This document shows, in pieces, positions 29,339 to 45,635 of a stretch of 64,000 bases of DNA. The stretch is from assembly GCA_003020945.1 (NCBI GenBank), contig PXRU01000020.1, positions 1 through 64,000 of the forward strand, given 5' to 3'. Each line of letters begins with the position of its first letter. Position 1 is the first letter of the stretch. The position numbers and the translations under genes are program-made. This DNA is from Halobacteriales archaeon QS_6_71_20. Its GTDB lineage: Archaea > Halobacteriota > Halobacteria > Halobacteriales > Haloferacaceae. Below the pieces are notes generated by a model. The model was not told the DNA's origin, ran no database searches, and was given only the letters and a program-made list of their open reading frames with translations.

Positions 29339-30682
29339 TCAGTCGTCGCCCGCCGTCGGCGCCGGACCGGTCGCCGAGCCGGCGCCGCGCTCGGCCACCG
29401 CGATGAGTGCGCCGCCAGCGACGACGACGCCCGCGGCGACCGCGAGCGAGACGCTCCGCACCGCGGCGTCGTAGCCGAGCGGGTCGGTCAGGAGGCCCAC
29501 GACCGCGCCCATCGCGACGGGCGCGCCCGTCGAGCCGACGCGGCCGACCGACTCGCCGAGGCTGACCAGCCCGCCGCGCAGTTCGTCGGCCGCGAGGCCG
29601 GTGATCGCCGAGCGGTACAGCGTCAACGAGACGGCGAAGCCCGCGCCGACGGGCACTCCGGCGGCCAGCGCGACCGGCACCGACGGCGCGAGCGCGAGGC
29701 CGGCCAGCCCCGCCGCGCCGACGACCAGCGCCGCGAACGTGGGGAGCGGGCGGCCGAACCGGGCGGTGAGCCGTCCCGCCTGCGTTGTCGCGGCGGCGCT
29801 GGAGACGGACGCGACCGCGACCAGCGCCCCCGCGGCGCCCGGCGACCCGCCCAACAGCCGTACGACCACGATCGAGTTGTAGGTGAGGAACGCGAACCAC
29901 AGGAAGCCGGGTATCGCCCGGCCAAGCAGCGTCGCGGCGACCCGCGGCCGCGACGCCAGCGCCAGCAGCGCGCGCACGCCGCCGGGCGACTCCTCGTCGG
30001 CGTCCGTCGCCCCGTCGTCGGCCGGCGGTTCGTCCCCGCCGGCGGACTCCTCGTCGTCGAGGTCCGCAGACTCCTCGAACAGCAGCCACACGACCGCGGC
30101 GACGGGCAGGGCCGCGGCGTACAGCGCGAACGGGAACTGCCACGCGACCGCGACGAGCAGCCCCGCGAGGAACGGGAACACCGTCAGCGAGACGCCGACG
30201 ACGGTGAAGCGCACGCCCTGGGCGGTCGACTCGCGGGCGCCCGAGAACAGGTCGCCGGTCGCCGTGATCAGGATCGGCCCGATCCCGGTATAGCCGACGC
30301 CCTGGAGCAGTCGCAGCGCCAGCGCGACCCGGAAGTCGGTCGTCAGCGTCAGCGCGACCCGGAAGTCGGTCGTCAGCGTCAGCGCGACGCCCGCGAGGCC
30401 GAACAGGGCCAGCCCCGCCGACAGCACCGGCTTCCGGCCGTAGCGGTCGGCGAGCACGCCCGACAGGGGGATACAGACGATCCCCGGCGCGGTGAACGCC
30501 GACAGCAGCAGCGCCACCTCCGTCGCGGAGACGCCGTACGGCCCCGCCAGCGACTCGACCACCGGCGACACCACCGACGCGCCCATCGGCGAGATGAGCG
30601 ACGCCAGCAACAGCAGGCGGAAGTCCCGGTCCGCGAGCACGTCCGCGTCCGCGCCCACGAGGCTTCGCAGCGAGAGCGACAC
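29339..30682 (-). CDS. Major facilitator superfamily transporter
   Basis: 447 residues from a GTG start (VSLSLRSLVGADADVLADRD). Twelve helices; the helix 2-3 loop has the MFS motif GVLADRYGRKPVL. A loop of about 35 Asp/Glu-rich residues separates the halves. The segment after helix 3 contains a duplicated decapeptide, VALTLTTDFR twice in a row, caused by an exact 30-bp duplication. This adds ten residues to the helix 4 region and might affect folding. Substrate unknown. The GTG is preferred because all upstream in-frame sequence is non-coding in character. Confidence 0.82.
   Translation of the reverse strand: MSLSLRSLVGADADVLADRDFRLLLLASLISPMGASVVSPVVESLAGPYGVSATEVALLLSAFTAPGIVCIPLSGVLADRYGRKPVLSAGLALFGLAGVALTLTTDFRVALTLTTDFRVALALRLLQGVGYTGIGPILITATGDLFSGARESTAQGVRFTVVGVSLTVFPFLAGLLVAVAWQFPFALYAAALPVAAVVWLLFEESADLDDEESAGGDEPPADDGATDADEESPGGVRALLALASRPRVAATLLGRAIPGFLWFAFLTYNSIVVVRLLGGSPGAAGALVAVASVSSAAATTQAGRLTARFGRPLPTFAALVVGAAGLAGLALAPSVPVALAAGVPVGAGFAVSLTLYRSAITGLAADELRGGLVSLGESVGRVGSTGAPVAMGAVVGLLTDPLGYDAAVRSVSLAVAAGVVVAGGALIAVAERGAGSATGPAPTAGDD
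30321..30388. repeat. Exact 30-bp tandem duplication inside the MFS gene
   Basis: Two identical 30-bp units (30321-30350 and 30351-30380), followed by 8 bases of a third. The repeat is in frame and inserts ten residues next to a transmembrane helix. Identity without divergence indicates a very recent event or an assembly error. Confidence 0.9.
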
Positions 30683-30863
30683 GGTCGCGCTGGGGCGGGC
30701 CCGGGCAAGAGCGACACGGTTGCCGACGGCTCGCTCGTCGGCGAGGGCGACCTCGGAGCGACGCCGAACCGTGTGACTGCTCCGACCGTTCGCGGGTCGC
30801 GTCGTGGTCACGACGTCCGCGGATCGCGGTGGGTTCATACCGTCCGCGGTCGACGGGGCGCGC

Positions 30864-31877
30864 ATGCCCGACGCCGACCCCTCCCCCGAACCGGCGGGGG
30901 CGGCCGACGACCCGCTCGCCGGCCTCGACCCCGAACTGCGCGCCGTCGTCGCCGACATCGAGGCGCTCGGGGTGCCGCCGTGGCACGCCCTCTCGGTGGA
31001 GAGCGCCCGCCGGATCGAGGACGAACTGTTCGACTCGGACACGGACCTGCCGGTCGCCTCCACGCTCGATCTGGCTATCGACGGCCCGGACGGCGACGAC
31101 CTGCCGCTGCGGATCTACCGCCCGGAGGGGACCCCCGCGCCGACGCTGGTGTTCCTCCACGGCGGCGGCTGGTGTCTCGGCACGCTCGACTCCGCGGACG
31201 ACCTTGCCCGCCGGCTCTGCCAGCGGGTCGGCGCCGTCGTCGTCTCCGTCGACTACCGGCTCGCGCCCGAACACCCGTTCCCCGCGGCAGTCGACGACGC
31301 GGTCCGCGCGCTGCAATGGAGCCGCGAGTACGCCCCCGAGTTCGGCGGGAACGGCGTCGTCGGCGTCGCCGGCTCCTCGGCCGGCGGAACCCTCGCGGCC
31401 GCCGCGTCGCTGGCGCGCCCGGGCGGGGAGACCCCGGCCGTCCAGACGCTGTTGTACCCCGTCACCGACCGCGACTTCGGAACCGACTCCTACGAGGCCA
31501 ACGCCGACGGCCCGCTGCTGACGCGGGCGGACATGCGTCGCTTCTGGCGGGAGTACCTCCGCTCGGACGTGGACGCGGCGAACCCGCACGCCGCGCCGCT
31601 TCGCGCCCGGGAGGCGACCCTCGCGGCGACGGCGCCGGCGGTCGTCGTCACCGCCGGGCGCGACCCGCTGCGCGACGACGGGGCCGCCTACGCCGCCCGG
31701 CTCGCGGACGCCGGCGTCGACGTCGACCACCTCGACTACGAGGGGATGTGTCACGGCTTCTGCTCGCTGGCCGACGAGGTCGCCGCGGCGGACGCCGCGT
31801 TCGACGACCTCGCGGCGGCGACCCGGGAGCGCCTGGCGGCCGCGGGCGCCGACTCGGGAGCGCCTGACGGCTCGTGA
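30864..31877 (+). CDS. Alpha/beta hydrolase, HSL-type esterase/lipase
   Basis: 337 residues. Hormone-sensitive-lipase family (bacterial family IV) esterase. The oxyanion motif is FLHGGGWCLG (residues about 95-104), the nucleophile is in GVAGSSAGGTLA (GSSAG), the catalytic Asp is in VTAGRDPLRDDG and the His in GMCHGFCSLA. Start chosen at MPDADPSPE; the longer frame from 30804 adds a Gly/Ala lead without family similarity. It acts on short-chain esters; the natural substrate is unknown. Divergent from the MFS gene. Confidence 0.88.
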   Translation: MPDADPSPEPAGAADDPLAGLDPELRAVVADIEALGVPPWHALSVESARRIEDELFDSDTDLPVASTLDLAIDGPDGDDLPLRIYRPEGTPAPTLVFLHGGGWCLGTLDSADDLARRLCQRVGAVVVSVDYRLAPEHPFPAAVDDAVRALQWSREYAPEFGGNGVVGVAGSSAGGTLAAAASLARPGGETPAVQTLLYPVTDRDFGTDSYEANADGPLLTRADMRRFWREYLRSDVDAANPHAAPLRAREATLAATAPAVVVTAGRDPLRDDGAAYAARLADAGVDVDHLDYEGMCHGFCSLADEVAAADAAFDDLAAATRERLAAAGADSGAPDGS

Positions 31878-31953
31878 GCCGACGGCGGCGCGGTGACCGA
31901 TGGCAGTGCAGTGGCCGACAGCGACCCGGTGATCGACGGCGACCGATCCGCCG

Positions 31954-33012
31954 TCAGTCCCGTCCCGACAGGCGCTCGTAGGCCGCCCACGACGCGTCCT
32001 CGGCGGGCGGGGCGACCCGCTCGCCGTCGACGAACACGCCCGACCCGTCCCGGACCTCGCCGGCGACCCCGACGGGGGTGTCGCGCGCCTCCAGCGCCCC
32101 GACGACCCTGTCGACCGCCGCCGGATCGACCGCAAGCAGCAGCGTCCCCGAGGTGGTGCACGCCCACGGGTCGACGTCCAACGCCGCACACGTCGCCAGC
32201 GCGGCGTCGTCGCGGGGGACGGCGGCGGCGTCCACGTCGATCCGGACGTCCGCGGCCGCGGCCGTCTCACACAGCGCGCCGCGGAGGCCGCCCTCGGTGG
32301 CGTCGTGCATCGCCGTGACGCCGGCGTCCGCGTCGTCGGCCGTCTCCCGTCCCGCCGCCGCCGCCACGAGCGCGTCGCGCACGACGCTCGTCTCCTCGAT
32401 CAGGTCCGCGGCGGCGGCGACGGTCGCCCCGTCGAGCCCCCGCTCGGCGAGCGCGTCGGGGAACAGCGAGGCGAACACGCCCGCCGTCTCGATCCCCGGC
32501 CCCCGCGTGACGAGCAGGCGGTCGCCCGGGCGTGCGCCGTCGGGCCGGACCACGTCGTCGTGGTCGCCGACGCCGAGCACGGTCGCCGCGCCCACCCACG
32601 GGAACGACGCCCCGGGGTAGCGCGCGGTGTGGCCCGTCGGCACCGCGACGCCGAGCGCGTCGCACTCGGCGGCCACGGCCCCCCAGAACGCGGCGAACGC
32701 CTCGTCGCTCGCGTCGCCGGGCAGCGCGAACGAGGGGCAGAAGTGGGTGGGGACGAGCCCGGAGACGGCCACGTCGCTGAGGGCGAACGAGAGGGCGAAC
32801 CGGCCGGCGCGCTCGGGGTCTAACCCCGGCAGCCACGAGAGGGGGTCGGTCGCGCACACGACCGCGCGGCCGGCGACGTCGAGGACGCCGAAGTCGACGC
32901 CGTGGGCGGGGCCGAGTCGGATGTCGGCGCGGTCGGCGCCGACGGCGGGGCGGACGACCGACTCGAACGCGGTGCGGTCGAGTTTCCCCCGACGGGGGGT
33001 GTCGTCGCTCAT
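31954..33012 (-). CDS. AIR synthase-related (PurM/HypE/ThiL-like) protein
   Basis: 352 residues with the two-domain PurM fold: an N-terminal alpha/beta domain (VVCATDPLSWLPGLDPERAG, where the Asp binds Mg-ATP) and a C-terminal domain with GDRLLVTRGPGIETAG and TAMHDATEGGLRGALCE. The latter resembles the HypE/SelD-type DATEGG block. The substrate is unknown; it is not PurM itself, which is recognisable by other motifs. It is convergent with the esterase gene and 36 bases upstream of the FG-GAP gene on the same strand. Confidence 0.82.
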   Translation of the reverse strand: MSDDTPRRGKLDRTAFESVVRPAVGADRADIRLGPAHGVDFGVLDVAGRAVVCATDPLSWLPGLDPERAGRFALSFALSDVAVSGLVPTHFCPSFALPGDASDEAFAAFWGAVAAECDALGVAVPTGHTARYPGASFPWVGAATVLGVGDHDDVVRPDGARPGDRLLVTRGPGIETAGVFASLFPDALAERGLDGATVAAAADLIEETSVVRDALVAAAAGRETADDADAGVTAMHDATEGGLRGALCETAAAADVRIDVDAAAVPRDDAALATCAALDVDPWACTTSGTLLLAVDPAAVDRVVGALEARDTPVGVAGEVRDGSGVFVDGERVAPPAEDASWAAYERLSGRD

Positions 33013-39946: not shown

Positions 39947-41568
39947 ATGACCGACCGCGCGCCGAACCGGAACACGCTGTGGGGTCGCGTCGTCGCCGAC
40001 GAGCTGGCCGCGGCCGGCGTCGACGCCGTCTGCGTCACCCCCGGCTCGCGCTCGACGCCCCTGACCGTCGCGTTCGCCGAGCACCCCGACGTCCGCGTCC
40101 GCTCGCACCTCGACGAGCGCTCCTCGGCCTTCTTCGCGCTCGGCCGCGCCCGCCGGACGGGCGCGGTGACGCCGCTGGTGTGCACCTCGGGCACGGCGGC
40201 CGCCAACTTCCACCCCGCCGTGATGGAGGCGAGCCAGTCGCGCGTGCCGTTGCTGCTGCTCACCGCCGACCGCCCGCCGGAGCTGCGGGACTCGGGGGCG
40301 AACCAGACCGTCGACCAGGAGAAGCTGTACGGCGACGCCGTCCGCTGGTACAGGGACCTCCCCGAGCCGGAGGCCGACGACCGGAAGCTGCGCTCGCTGC
40401 GGACCGACCTCGCGCGCGCCGTCTCGACCGCCGAGGGCACCCCGTCGGGGCCGGTCCACCTGAACGTCCCGTTCCGCAAGCCGCTGGAGCCCATTACGGT
40501 CGAGGGCGACGTGCCCGCCGATCTCCCGAGCGAGGCCGCCGAGGGGCGCGACGGCGCGTTCGTCTCGACAACGGCTGGCCACCCGATGCCCGACGACCGC
40601 GACCTGCGGCGACTCGCGCGGGCGCTCGCGGTCGAGCGCGGCCTGATCGTCGCCGGCCCCGCCGACCCGCCCGGCCCGGACCACGAGGCGGTGACGGCGC
40701 TCTCGCACGCGACCGGCTTCCCCCTGCTCGCGGACCCGCTCTCGGGACTGCGGTTCGGCTCGCCGACGCGGGTCGCGCCCGTCCTCGGCGGCTACGACGG
40801 GGTGCTCGCCGGCGGTGCCCCCGACGGGTGGCCGGAGCCGGAGGTCGTCCTCCGGTTCGGCGCCTCCCCCACCTCGAAGCCGCTGCGGCGATACCTCGCG
40901 GGCACCGCGACCGCTGGACGGCCGCCGAGGCGGCCCACTGGGACGCCGTCGAGGCGGAGGACCGCTTCTTCGAGGGGCGCGTGCTCGCGGACGTGGCCGA
41001 GCTCGCGCCGGAGCCGTCGACGGTGTTCGTCTCCAACTCGATGCCCGTCCGCGACGCCGACCGCTTCGCCGCCCCCGCCGCGACGGGGCTGACGATGCTC
41101 GGCAACCGCGGCGCCTCCGGCATCGACGGCATCGTCTCGACGGCGCTGGGGGCGGGGTCGGCGACGGCCGACGACCTGACGCTGGTGACCGGGGACCTGG
41201 CGTACTACCACGACATGAACGGCCTGCTCGCGCTGGAACGGTGCGACGTGGACGCGACGGTCGTCCTCGTCGACAACGACGGCGGCGGCATCTTCCACAT
41301 GCTCCCGATCGAGGCGTTCGACCCGCCGTTCACGGCGCAGTTCAGGACGCCCCACGGGCTCGACTTCGAGCCGACCGGCGAGCTGTACGACCTGTCGTTC
41401 GCCCGCGTCGGCGGCGACGACCGCGAGGGGTTCCGCGAGCTGTACCGGGAGAGCGTCGCGAGCGAGGGGACGCAGGTGATCGCGGTCGACAGCGACGCCG
41501 AGGCCAGCCACCGGGTGCGCGAGGAGCTCGCCGAGACGGTGGCCGAGCGCGTGGCGGCCATCGAGTAG
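39947..41568 (+). pseudogene. menD: menD with internal deletion and frameshift
   Basis: MenD makes SEPHCHC from isochorismate and 2-oxoglutarate with ThDP. Frame 2 from the ATG reads the N-terminal half (NTLWGRVVADELAAAGVDAV, CVTPGSRSTPLTVAFAEHPD, LVCTSGTAAANFHPAVMEAS, FGASPTSKPLRRYLAG). Near 40900-40915 the family continuation changes to frame 1 ([64 protein letters not shown], the ThDP/Mg site). About 40-45 residues usual in the family are missing at the junction. As written, no complete MenD can be made. No menF is visible upstream. Confidence 0.85.
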
Positions 41569-41727: not shown

Positions 41728-42660
41728 ATGAGCGACACCGAGCCCGTCTCGGCGATCTTCGACCCCGACCGGTGGGAGCCGGTCGAGGGTAGCGACGCGT
41801 TCGACGACGTCACCTATCACCGCGCGGTCGACTCCCCGACCGTCCGGATCGCGTTCGACCGCCCGGAGACGCGCAACGCGTTCCGCCCCGGCACCGTCGA
41901 CGAGCTGTACGCCGCCCTCGACGACGCCCGCAAGCGGGCCGACGTGGGCTGCGTCCTCCTCACCGGCAACGGCCCGTCCCCGAAGGACGGCGGCTGGGCG
42001 TTCTGCTCGGGCGGCGACCAGTCCGTCCGCGGCGACTCCGGCTACGAGTACCGCGACGACGACGAGGCCGACGAGTCCGACGACGAACTCGTGCGCGAGG
42101 CGAAGGCCGGCCGGCTCCACGTCCTCGAAGTCCAGCGCCTCGTCCGGTTCATGCCCAAGCCCGTCGTCGCCGTCGTGCCGGGCTGGGCCGTCGGCGGAGG
42201 CCACTCCCTGCACGTGGTCTGTGACCTCACACTCGCGAGCGACGAGCACGCGAAGTTCCTCCAGACGGACCCCGACGTGGCCAGCTTCGACGGCGGCTTC
42301 GGCTCCGCGTACCTCGCCAAGCAGGTGGGCCAGAAGAAGGCCCGCGAGGTGTTCTTCCGCGGGAAGACGTACTCCGCCGAGGAGGCCGTCGACATGGGGA
42401 TGGCCAACGAGGCGGTCCCCCACGAGGACCTGGAGGACGTCGCCCTAGAGTGGGCCGACGAGATGACGAGCAAGTCGCCGACGGCGATGCGAATGCTGAA
42501 GTTCGCGTTCAACATGACCGATGACGGGATGGTCGGCCAGCAGGTGTTCGCCGGCGAGGCCACGCGGCTGGCGTACATGACCCCGGAGGCACAGGAGGGC
42601 CGCGACGCGTTCCTGGAGGGGCGGGAGCCGGACTTCTCCGGGCATCCCTGGCACTACTAA
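41728..42660 (+). CDS. menB: 1,4-dihydroxy-2-naphthoyl-CoA synthase
   Basis: 310 residues, a crotonase-fold enzyme that closes o-succinylbenzoyl-CoA to DHNA-CoA. Family features are RPETRNAFRPGTVDELYAAL, the oxyanion segment FCSGGDQSVRG, GWAVGGGHSLHVVCDLTLAS, and TDPDVASFDGGFGSAYLA, with the catalytic Asp/Tyr region. The C-terminal FSGHPWHY is typical of MenB. The gene sits between menD and menA, matching a haloarchaeal menaquinone cluster. The start MSDTEPVSAIFDPDRW is about 27 bases after a TATA-like run. Confidence 0.93.
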   Translation: MSDTEPVSAIFDPDRWEPVEGSDAFDDVTYHRAVDSPTVRIAFDRPETRNAFRPGTVDELYAALDDARKRADVGCVLLTGNGPSPKDGGWAFCSGGDQSVRGDSGYEYRDDDEADESDDELVREAKAGRLHVLEVQRLVRFMPKPVVAVVPGWAVGGGHSLHVVCDLTLASDEHAKFLQTDPDVASFDGGFGSAYLAKQVGQKKAREVFFRGKTYSAEEAVDMGMANEAVPHEDLEDVALEWADEMTSKSPTAMRMLKFAFNMTDDGMVGQQVFAGEATRLAYMTPEAQEGRDAFLEGREPDFSGHPWHY

Positions 42661-43672: not shown

Positions 43673-43736
43673 GGCACGGAGCGGTGGCGACCGGGAAGCC
43701 CACCCTTCAATGTCCCGGCCGCCCCAGTCTCCGACA

Positions 43737-44684
43737 ATGAGCACGGAGACGAGCCAGGCGGACATCTCCAGGCGACGCGCGTGGCTGATCGCCGCGCGCC
43801 CGCAGACGATGCCGGCGGCGCTGGCGCCCGTCCTCGTCGGGACCGGCCTCGCCGTCCGCGACGGCGTGTTCGCGCCCCTGCCGGCGCTGGTGGCGCTGGT
43901 GGGCGCGGCGCTGATCCAGGTCGGGACGAACTTCGCGAACGACTACTACGACGCCGTTCGGGGCGCCGACACCGCCGACCGGGAGGGGTTCACCCGGGTG
44001 ACGGCCGGCGGGATCATCGAGCCCGCGGCGGTGAAGCGCGCGATGTGGCTCACCTTCCTCGCGGCGGTCCTCGTCGGCGGCTACCTCGTCGCCGTCGCGG
44101 GGCTGCCGATCCTGGTCGTCGGCCTCGTCTCCGTGGCGCTGGGCGTCGCCTACACCGGCGGCCCGTACCCGCTGGCGTACCACGGCCTCGGCGACGTGTT
44201 CGTGTTCGCCTTCTTCGGCGTCGTCGCGGTCGCGGGCACCTACTACGTCCAGGCGGCCGCGCGGCTGGGCGTCGACTTGCTCGCGTTCGTCCCGCGCGCG
44301 GAACTGGTGCCGCCGGCGGCGGTCGTCGCCTCGCTCCCGGTCGCGGCCATCGCGACGAACATCCTCGTCGTCAACAACCTCCGGGACCGCGAGGAGGACG
44401 CCGAGACGGGGAAGAACACCCTCGCCGTCCGCTTCGGCTACGGCTTCTCGCGGGCGCAGTTCGTGCTCCTGCTCGGGATGGCGTACGCGATCCCGCCGGT
44501 GTTTCTCGCGTCGACCGGCGACGCGACGACGCTGCTGCCCCTGCTGACGCTCCCGCTGGCGCTGCCGCTGACGCGGACGGTGCTAACGGAGACGCGCGGC
44601 GAGGTGCTGAACCCGGCGCTGGAGCGGTGCGGGAAGCTGCACGCCGCGTTCGCGGCGCTGTTCGCGCTCGGGCTGGCGCTGTGA
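43737..44684 (+). CDS. menA: 1,4-dihydroxy-2-naphthoate polyprenyltransferase
   Basis: 315 residues, a UbiA-fold membrane enzyme with about nine helices. It joins DHNA to a polyprenyl chain to make demethylmenaquinone. Asp-rich motifs: [20 protein letters not shown] (residues about 60-80) and [20 protein letters not shown] (about 205-224). The N-terminus [20 protein letters not shown] is typical of MenA. Its stop overlaps the GTG start of menC by four bases, so they are translationally coupled. Confidence 0.92.
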
Positions 44685-45635
44685 CGGTCGTCGCGCTCCG
44701 CCCGTTCGCGCTCGACCTCCCCGCGCCGCTGTCGACGGCCGCCGGCGACATAGAGGCCCGCGAGGGACTGCTCGTCCGCGTCGACCTCGGCGACACGTCT
44801 GGCGTCGGCGAGGCGACGCCGCTGCCGGGGTGGACGGAGTCGCCGGCCGACTGTCGGGCGGCGCTGGAGCGCGCCCGCGACGGGGGACCCCTCCCGGGCC
44901 CGGACGCGCCCGCCGCCCGCCACGCCGTCACGCTCGCGTACCGGGACGCGTTCGCGCGACGGCGCGGCGAGGCGGTCGCCGGGAGCCTCGCCCTCGGCAA
45001 GGCGGCGGCGTCGGTCCCCGCGAACGCGACCGTCGGCGACGGCGACGGGACGGCGACGGTCGCGGCCGCGGAGTCGGCGGTCGCGGCCGGCTACCGGACG
45101 CTGAAGCTGAAGGTGGGCGCCCGCGACCTCGCGGCCGACGTCGACCGGGTGCGCGCGGTCGCCGAGGCGGTCGGCGGGCGGGGGGCTCGTCGAGTACGTC
45201 GAGCAGCCGCTCGCAGCGGGGGATCTGGCGGGCCACGCGTCGCTCCGGGGCGTCGGCGCCCCCGTCGCGCTGGACGAGTCGCTGACGCGGTACGGCGTCG
45301 GCGACGTGCTCGCGGCCGGGGCGGCGGACGCGCTCGTCCTGAAGCCGATGGCGCTGGGCGGCCCCTCGCGGGCGCTCGCGGCCGGCCGGGCCGCCGCGGC
45401 CGCCGGCGTCGACGCCGTCGTCACCACGACGGTCGACGCGGCGGTCGCACGCGCCGGCGCGGTCCACGTCGCCGCGGCGCTGCCGGACGGGGGTGAGCGC
45501 GCCCACGGCCTCGCGACCGCCGACCTGCTGGCGACGGATCTCGTCGACGACCCGGTCCCCGTCACGGACGGGCGGGTCGCGGTGCCGACGGAGGTGGGGC
45601 TTGCCGGCGGAGCGTTCGACGAACTCCTCCGATGA
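44681..45635 (+). pseudogene. menC: menC (o-succinylbenzoate synthase) with internal deletion and frameshift
   Basis: Enolase-superfamily enzyme that dehydrates SHCHC to o-succinylbenzoate. The first frame ([20 protein letters not shown]) runs through VGEATPLPGWTESP and YRTLKLKVGARDLAADVDRV, with the catalytic KxK. Near 45180 the family continuation jumps to frame 3: GLVEYVEQPLAAGDLAGHAS, APVALDESLTRYG, ADALVLKPMALGG, down to the stop at 45635. About 25-30 residues normally between these parts, including the VDANGAW block with a Mg-ligand Asp, are absent. No functional enzyme can be made as written. Confidence 0.8.

Follow-up and report, generated by a model that had tools for sequence, protein, structure and literature searches.

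The interrupted menD of Halobacteriales archaeon QS_6_71_20 as a probable unmarked gap in the genome assembly

In the draft genome of Halobacteriales archaeon QS_6_71_20, the menaquinone gene menD appears as two parts in different reading frames, with an internal segment missing where the parts meet. We infer, with a probability of nearly nine in ten, that this break is an unmarked gap of technical origin in the assembly and not a property of the organism, which most likely carries an intact menD. Codons and frame are lost at the same point, lesions of this type recur in this assembly only, and the DNA that is lost is biased toward high GC content.

The two parts of menD and the segment between them

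The window is the whole 64,000-nucleotide stretch analyzed here, taken from contig PXRU01000020.1. Within it, menD spans positions 39947 to 41568 of the forward strand and is split over two reading frames, the switch lying at about 40905. The N-terminal part (39947 to 40905, frame 2) comprises 319 to 320 amino acids from the ATG at 39947, ends with KPLRRYLAGT and contains the N-terminal TPP-binding (PYR, TPP_enzyme_N) domain (PF02776, 77 bits) together with the first portion of the middle domain; past the junction, this frame runs out of register until a stop at 41092. The C-terminal part (40906 to 41568, forward strand, +1 frame) reads DRWTAAEAAHWDA...AAIE, ends at 41568 and contains the end of the middle domain and the C-terminal TPP-binding (PP, TPP_enzyme_C) domain (PF02775, 23.7 bits, above its cutoff). 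The TIGR00173 profile aligned through its positions 2 to 298 at 39980 to 40903 (345 bits) and through its positions 345 to 434 at 40903 to 41160, about 46 profile positions being gone at a single point. There was no full-length, single-frame TIGR00173 equivalog match, and only the first of the two matches exceeded the cutoff. In its domain order and its place in the men cluster beside menB and menA, the gene resembles haloarchaeal menD (encoding SEPHCHC synthase, TIGR00173), including the Halobaculum orthologues; unlike them, it is short of 47 to 59 middle-domain residues and switches frame where these are missing.

Split alignments against same-genus genomes placed the deletion junction within 40903 to 40908 on the forward strand and narrowed it to 40905 to 40907, with no surplus base and an ambiguity of 2 to 3 nucleotides (microhomology). 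Relative to ten same-genus entries, 142 to 178 nucleotides were lost, in every case 3n+1. A preliminary description of this DNA had proposed that the menD halves lie in different frames and meet at 40900 to 40915, which the frame reading, TIGR00173 and the split alignment all confirmed, and that the segment is absent rather than merely frameshifted, in agreement with the extra nucleotides carried by all ten same-genus entries. The loss itself was thus correctly recognized, but the figure of about 40 residues was too low, alignment giving 47 to 59. The same description regarded the simultaneous loss of codons and frame as unexpected, a view that finds no support, since a single deletion of 3n+1 nucleotides produces both.

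The lost segment links LRRYLAG to RWTAAEAAHWDA and falls near the end of the middle domain, which separates the PYR domain from the PP domain. The rest of the assembly contained no copy of this segment. A second menD elsewhere in the genome, which had been suggested as worth looking for, was sought in the assembly and none was found; the one other TIGR00173 match, on contig C16, was weak (38 bits) and is consistent with another thiamine-diphosphate enzyme.

Both menD parts are open and conserved, with 86 to 89% amino acid identity to same-genus genes (86 to 88% for the C-terminal part), as would be expected if menD worked in its present form, either through ribosomal frameshifting or with its halves made as distinct polypeptides. 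Frameshifting, however, cannot bring back the 47 to 59 middle-domain residues that all relatives have kept, and we find such a working split gene scarcely conceivable. No RNA element was found at the break, the sole RNA match in the window being a tRNA.

We compared the break point with 90 menD loci, comprising the ten same-genus entries and 80 haloarchaeal loci from a genome-collection search, a few genomes being counted twice. In all 90, menD was uninterrupted in frame at this point, with 45 to 65 residues in the aligned segment. The length of the segment varies in a linker among relatives, but none lacked it, so that intact relatives naturally devoid of this segment, a finding that would have spoken against a lesion, did not turn up. 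Measured against a relative, dN was 0.074 for the N-terminal part and 0.086 for the C-terminal part, showing no excess of amino acid change, though a young lesion would look alike. As a point against a technical origin, the dN/dS ratio was higher for the C-terminal part (0.325) than for the N-terminal part (0.142), through a lower dS and not through a raised dN. The low dN of both parts fits an intact gene but is also compatible with a very young lesion.

menC and the other men genes

The gene for o-succinylbenzoate synthase, menC (44684 to 45635, forward strand), lies 4 kb downstream of menD and is broken in the same manner. We located it by tblastn with same-genus menC, and NCBIfam o-succinylbenzoate synthase models matched both of its parts. 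Its frame is split near 45175 to 45192, where about 30 residues are missing, including the RADANGAW region present in relatives; TIGR01927 aligned up to profile position 151 and resumed from position 184. The other men genes that were looked for are intact. The menB-like gene of the enoyl-CoA hydratase family (41728 to 42660, forward strand; PF00378) shows 92% amino acid identity to same-genus relatives, menA, encoding 1,4-dihydroxy-2-naphthoate prenyltransferase (43704 to 44684, forward strand), matched NF004751 with 370 bits as well as TIGR00751, and a menF-type isochorismate synthase gene is intact on another contig of the assembly. We also looked for the futalosine route, and all MqnC matches in the assembly were below the cutoff; these candidates were rejected, being consistent with a related radical-SAM enzyme.

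Two broken genes of one pathway invite the reading that the strain or population underwent a real and recent deletion of menD, in which replication slippage or end joining at the 2 to 3 nucleotides of microhomology removed about 150 nucleotides and inactivated the gene, a loss that cells might tolerate in culture or when cross-fed with quinone precursors. Besides the damage to menC, the seamless menD joint with its microhomology and an assembly that holds neither another menD nor an MqnC match over the cutoff agree with such an event. We nevertheless consider it unlikely, as menA, menB and the menF-type isochorismate synthase gene are still intact, menD is kept in every one of the 90 relatives' loci compared, neither menD half shows an excess of amino acid change, and unrelated core genes share the lesion, including the only topoisomerase VI subunit B and topoisomerase I genes of the assembly.

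Recurrence of the lesion in other genes

We scanned 1.2 of the 2.65 Mb of the assembly against reference genes of two good Halobaculum genomes, searching for the signature seen in menD, namely, a clean loss of sequence with a changed frame and well-conserved flanks. The reference gene set was filtered by GC3, since unfiltered open reading frames gave many false splits arising from antisense frames. Control genes were taken from loci of 80 haloarchaeal records and from two other Halobaculum genomes. Of the 313 genes placed in this assembly, 6 carried the lesion, with 41 to 154 nucleotides lost, against 0 of 573 control genes (Fisher P = 0.0019). With an identity under the threshold of the scan, menC is an additional case outside these six.

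Apart from menD, the affected genes are those for topoisomerase VI subunit B (top6B; contig C2, about 128381) and topoisomerase I (topA; contig C12, about 65769), a pcm-like gene (contig C8, about 33281), a large membrane-protein gene (contig C17, about 107466) and a thioredoxin-domain gene (contig C2, about 191766), each with a seamless loss and a change of frame; the last three names were read from the reference proteins and not from a family search. Family searches showed that the sole top6B and the sole topA of the assembly are both in pieces. That six or more further genes of the assembly share the lesion lay beyond what the preliminary description could see. In-frame losses of at least 10 residues were also commoner here than in the controls (14 of 310 versus 8 of 555; P = 0.011), a comparison that carries little weight because natural linker variation is mixed in.

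The lesion recurs here beyond menD and is absent from the control genes, which points to a loss of GC-rich DNA in the assembly or library rather than to a peculiarity of menD. A true loss of all affected genes in one cell, including its only top6B and topA, is hard to credit. It is very unlikely, in our view, that MenD and MenC function has really disappeared from this Halobaculum lineage by recent deletions at microhomologies, leaving it dependent on quinone precursors from its neighbors, or that small deletions targeted at GC-rich DNA are numerous in its genome and extend to core genes. The joints themselves, which are seamless with 0 to 4 nucleotides of microhomology, count against an artifact, since a simple de Bruijn assembler could not build such a joint unless some reads crossed it, and they could reflect real deletions.

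In the complete genome of Halobaculum litoreum DT92, we observed 10 one-base frameshifts in 160 kb among the checked genes, and its menC also looks shifted. These frameshifts look like uncorrected long-read indels, which the 85% completeness of that genome fits.

GC content, state of the assembly and meaning of the break

The lost segments, as found in relatives, had a mean GC content of 76.2%, compared to 69.9% for length-matched windows drawn at random from coding sequence, and only 0.0006 of the samples were as high. As DNA, they also formed more stable folds than randomly chosen coding windows (P = 0.0028), and the menD segment surpassed every one of the 150 windows sampled. Because GC content and fold stability are not independent, the two are treated here as a single line of evidence.

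With 32 contigs and 2.65 Mb, the assembly is a draft, estimated to be 93.9% complete with a contamination of 0, and genomes of the same genus measure 3.0 to 3.8 Mb. A fragmented draft of incomplete size with seamless joints might be expected if strains had been mixed in a metagenome-derived assembly and a minority deletion variant, or a chimeric path, had become the consensus. The contamination estimate of 0 speaks against such a mixture, as does the lack of an intact second version of the segment anywhere in the assembly, and we hold it to be extremely improbable. Internal runs of N in the assembly measure 13 to 206 nucleotides, and one that could be measured well holds 85 N where a relative has 178 nucleotides at 77% GC. 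Some of these runs may represent masking by the data holders rather than scaffold gaps. Contig C15 carries a far longer run of 1,956 N (positions 30518 to 32473), which could mark either a gap in the scaffold or sequence that was withheld.

Under the preferred reading of an unmarked assembly gap, about 150 nucleotides of menD, very rich in GC and strongly folding, would have dropped out at the library, sequencing or assembly stage, and the flanks would then have been fused to each other, no N being placed between them. A lost length of 3n+1 would have changed the frame at the same point. Candidate steps are amplification, with the polymerase skipping across a hairpin, and the joining of contig ends by a scaffolder or gap closer. 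Short-read assemblies are known to lose GC-rich coding sequence and thereby to yield false gene losses, with examples from vertebrates (PMC9516821). The present case resembles these in that core genes seem broken and GC-rich coding segments are missing from the assembly; it differs in that the vertebrate cases mostly concern 5' exons and marked gaps, whereas the segments missing here are internal to archaeal genes and their flanks are joined without N.

Menaquinone is the lipid electron carrier of haloarchaea, and menD of Haloferax volcanii has been assigned to its pathway (PMC8305020); a true loss of menD would therefore be costly and, if real, would mean that the pathway to the main respiratory quinone is interrupted in this haloarchaeon. 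As an unmarked gap, the menD case is of low biological interest but serves as a useful warning on quality: in about 2% of the genes checked, GC-rich coding sequence has dropped out of the assembly silently, with no N to mark the place. Apparent pathway gaps and pseudogenes deduced from this genome, a menaquinone auxotrophy for instance, would then be false, and the completeness of the genome would be understated.
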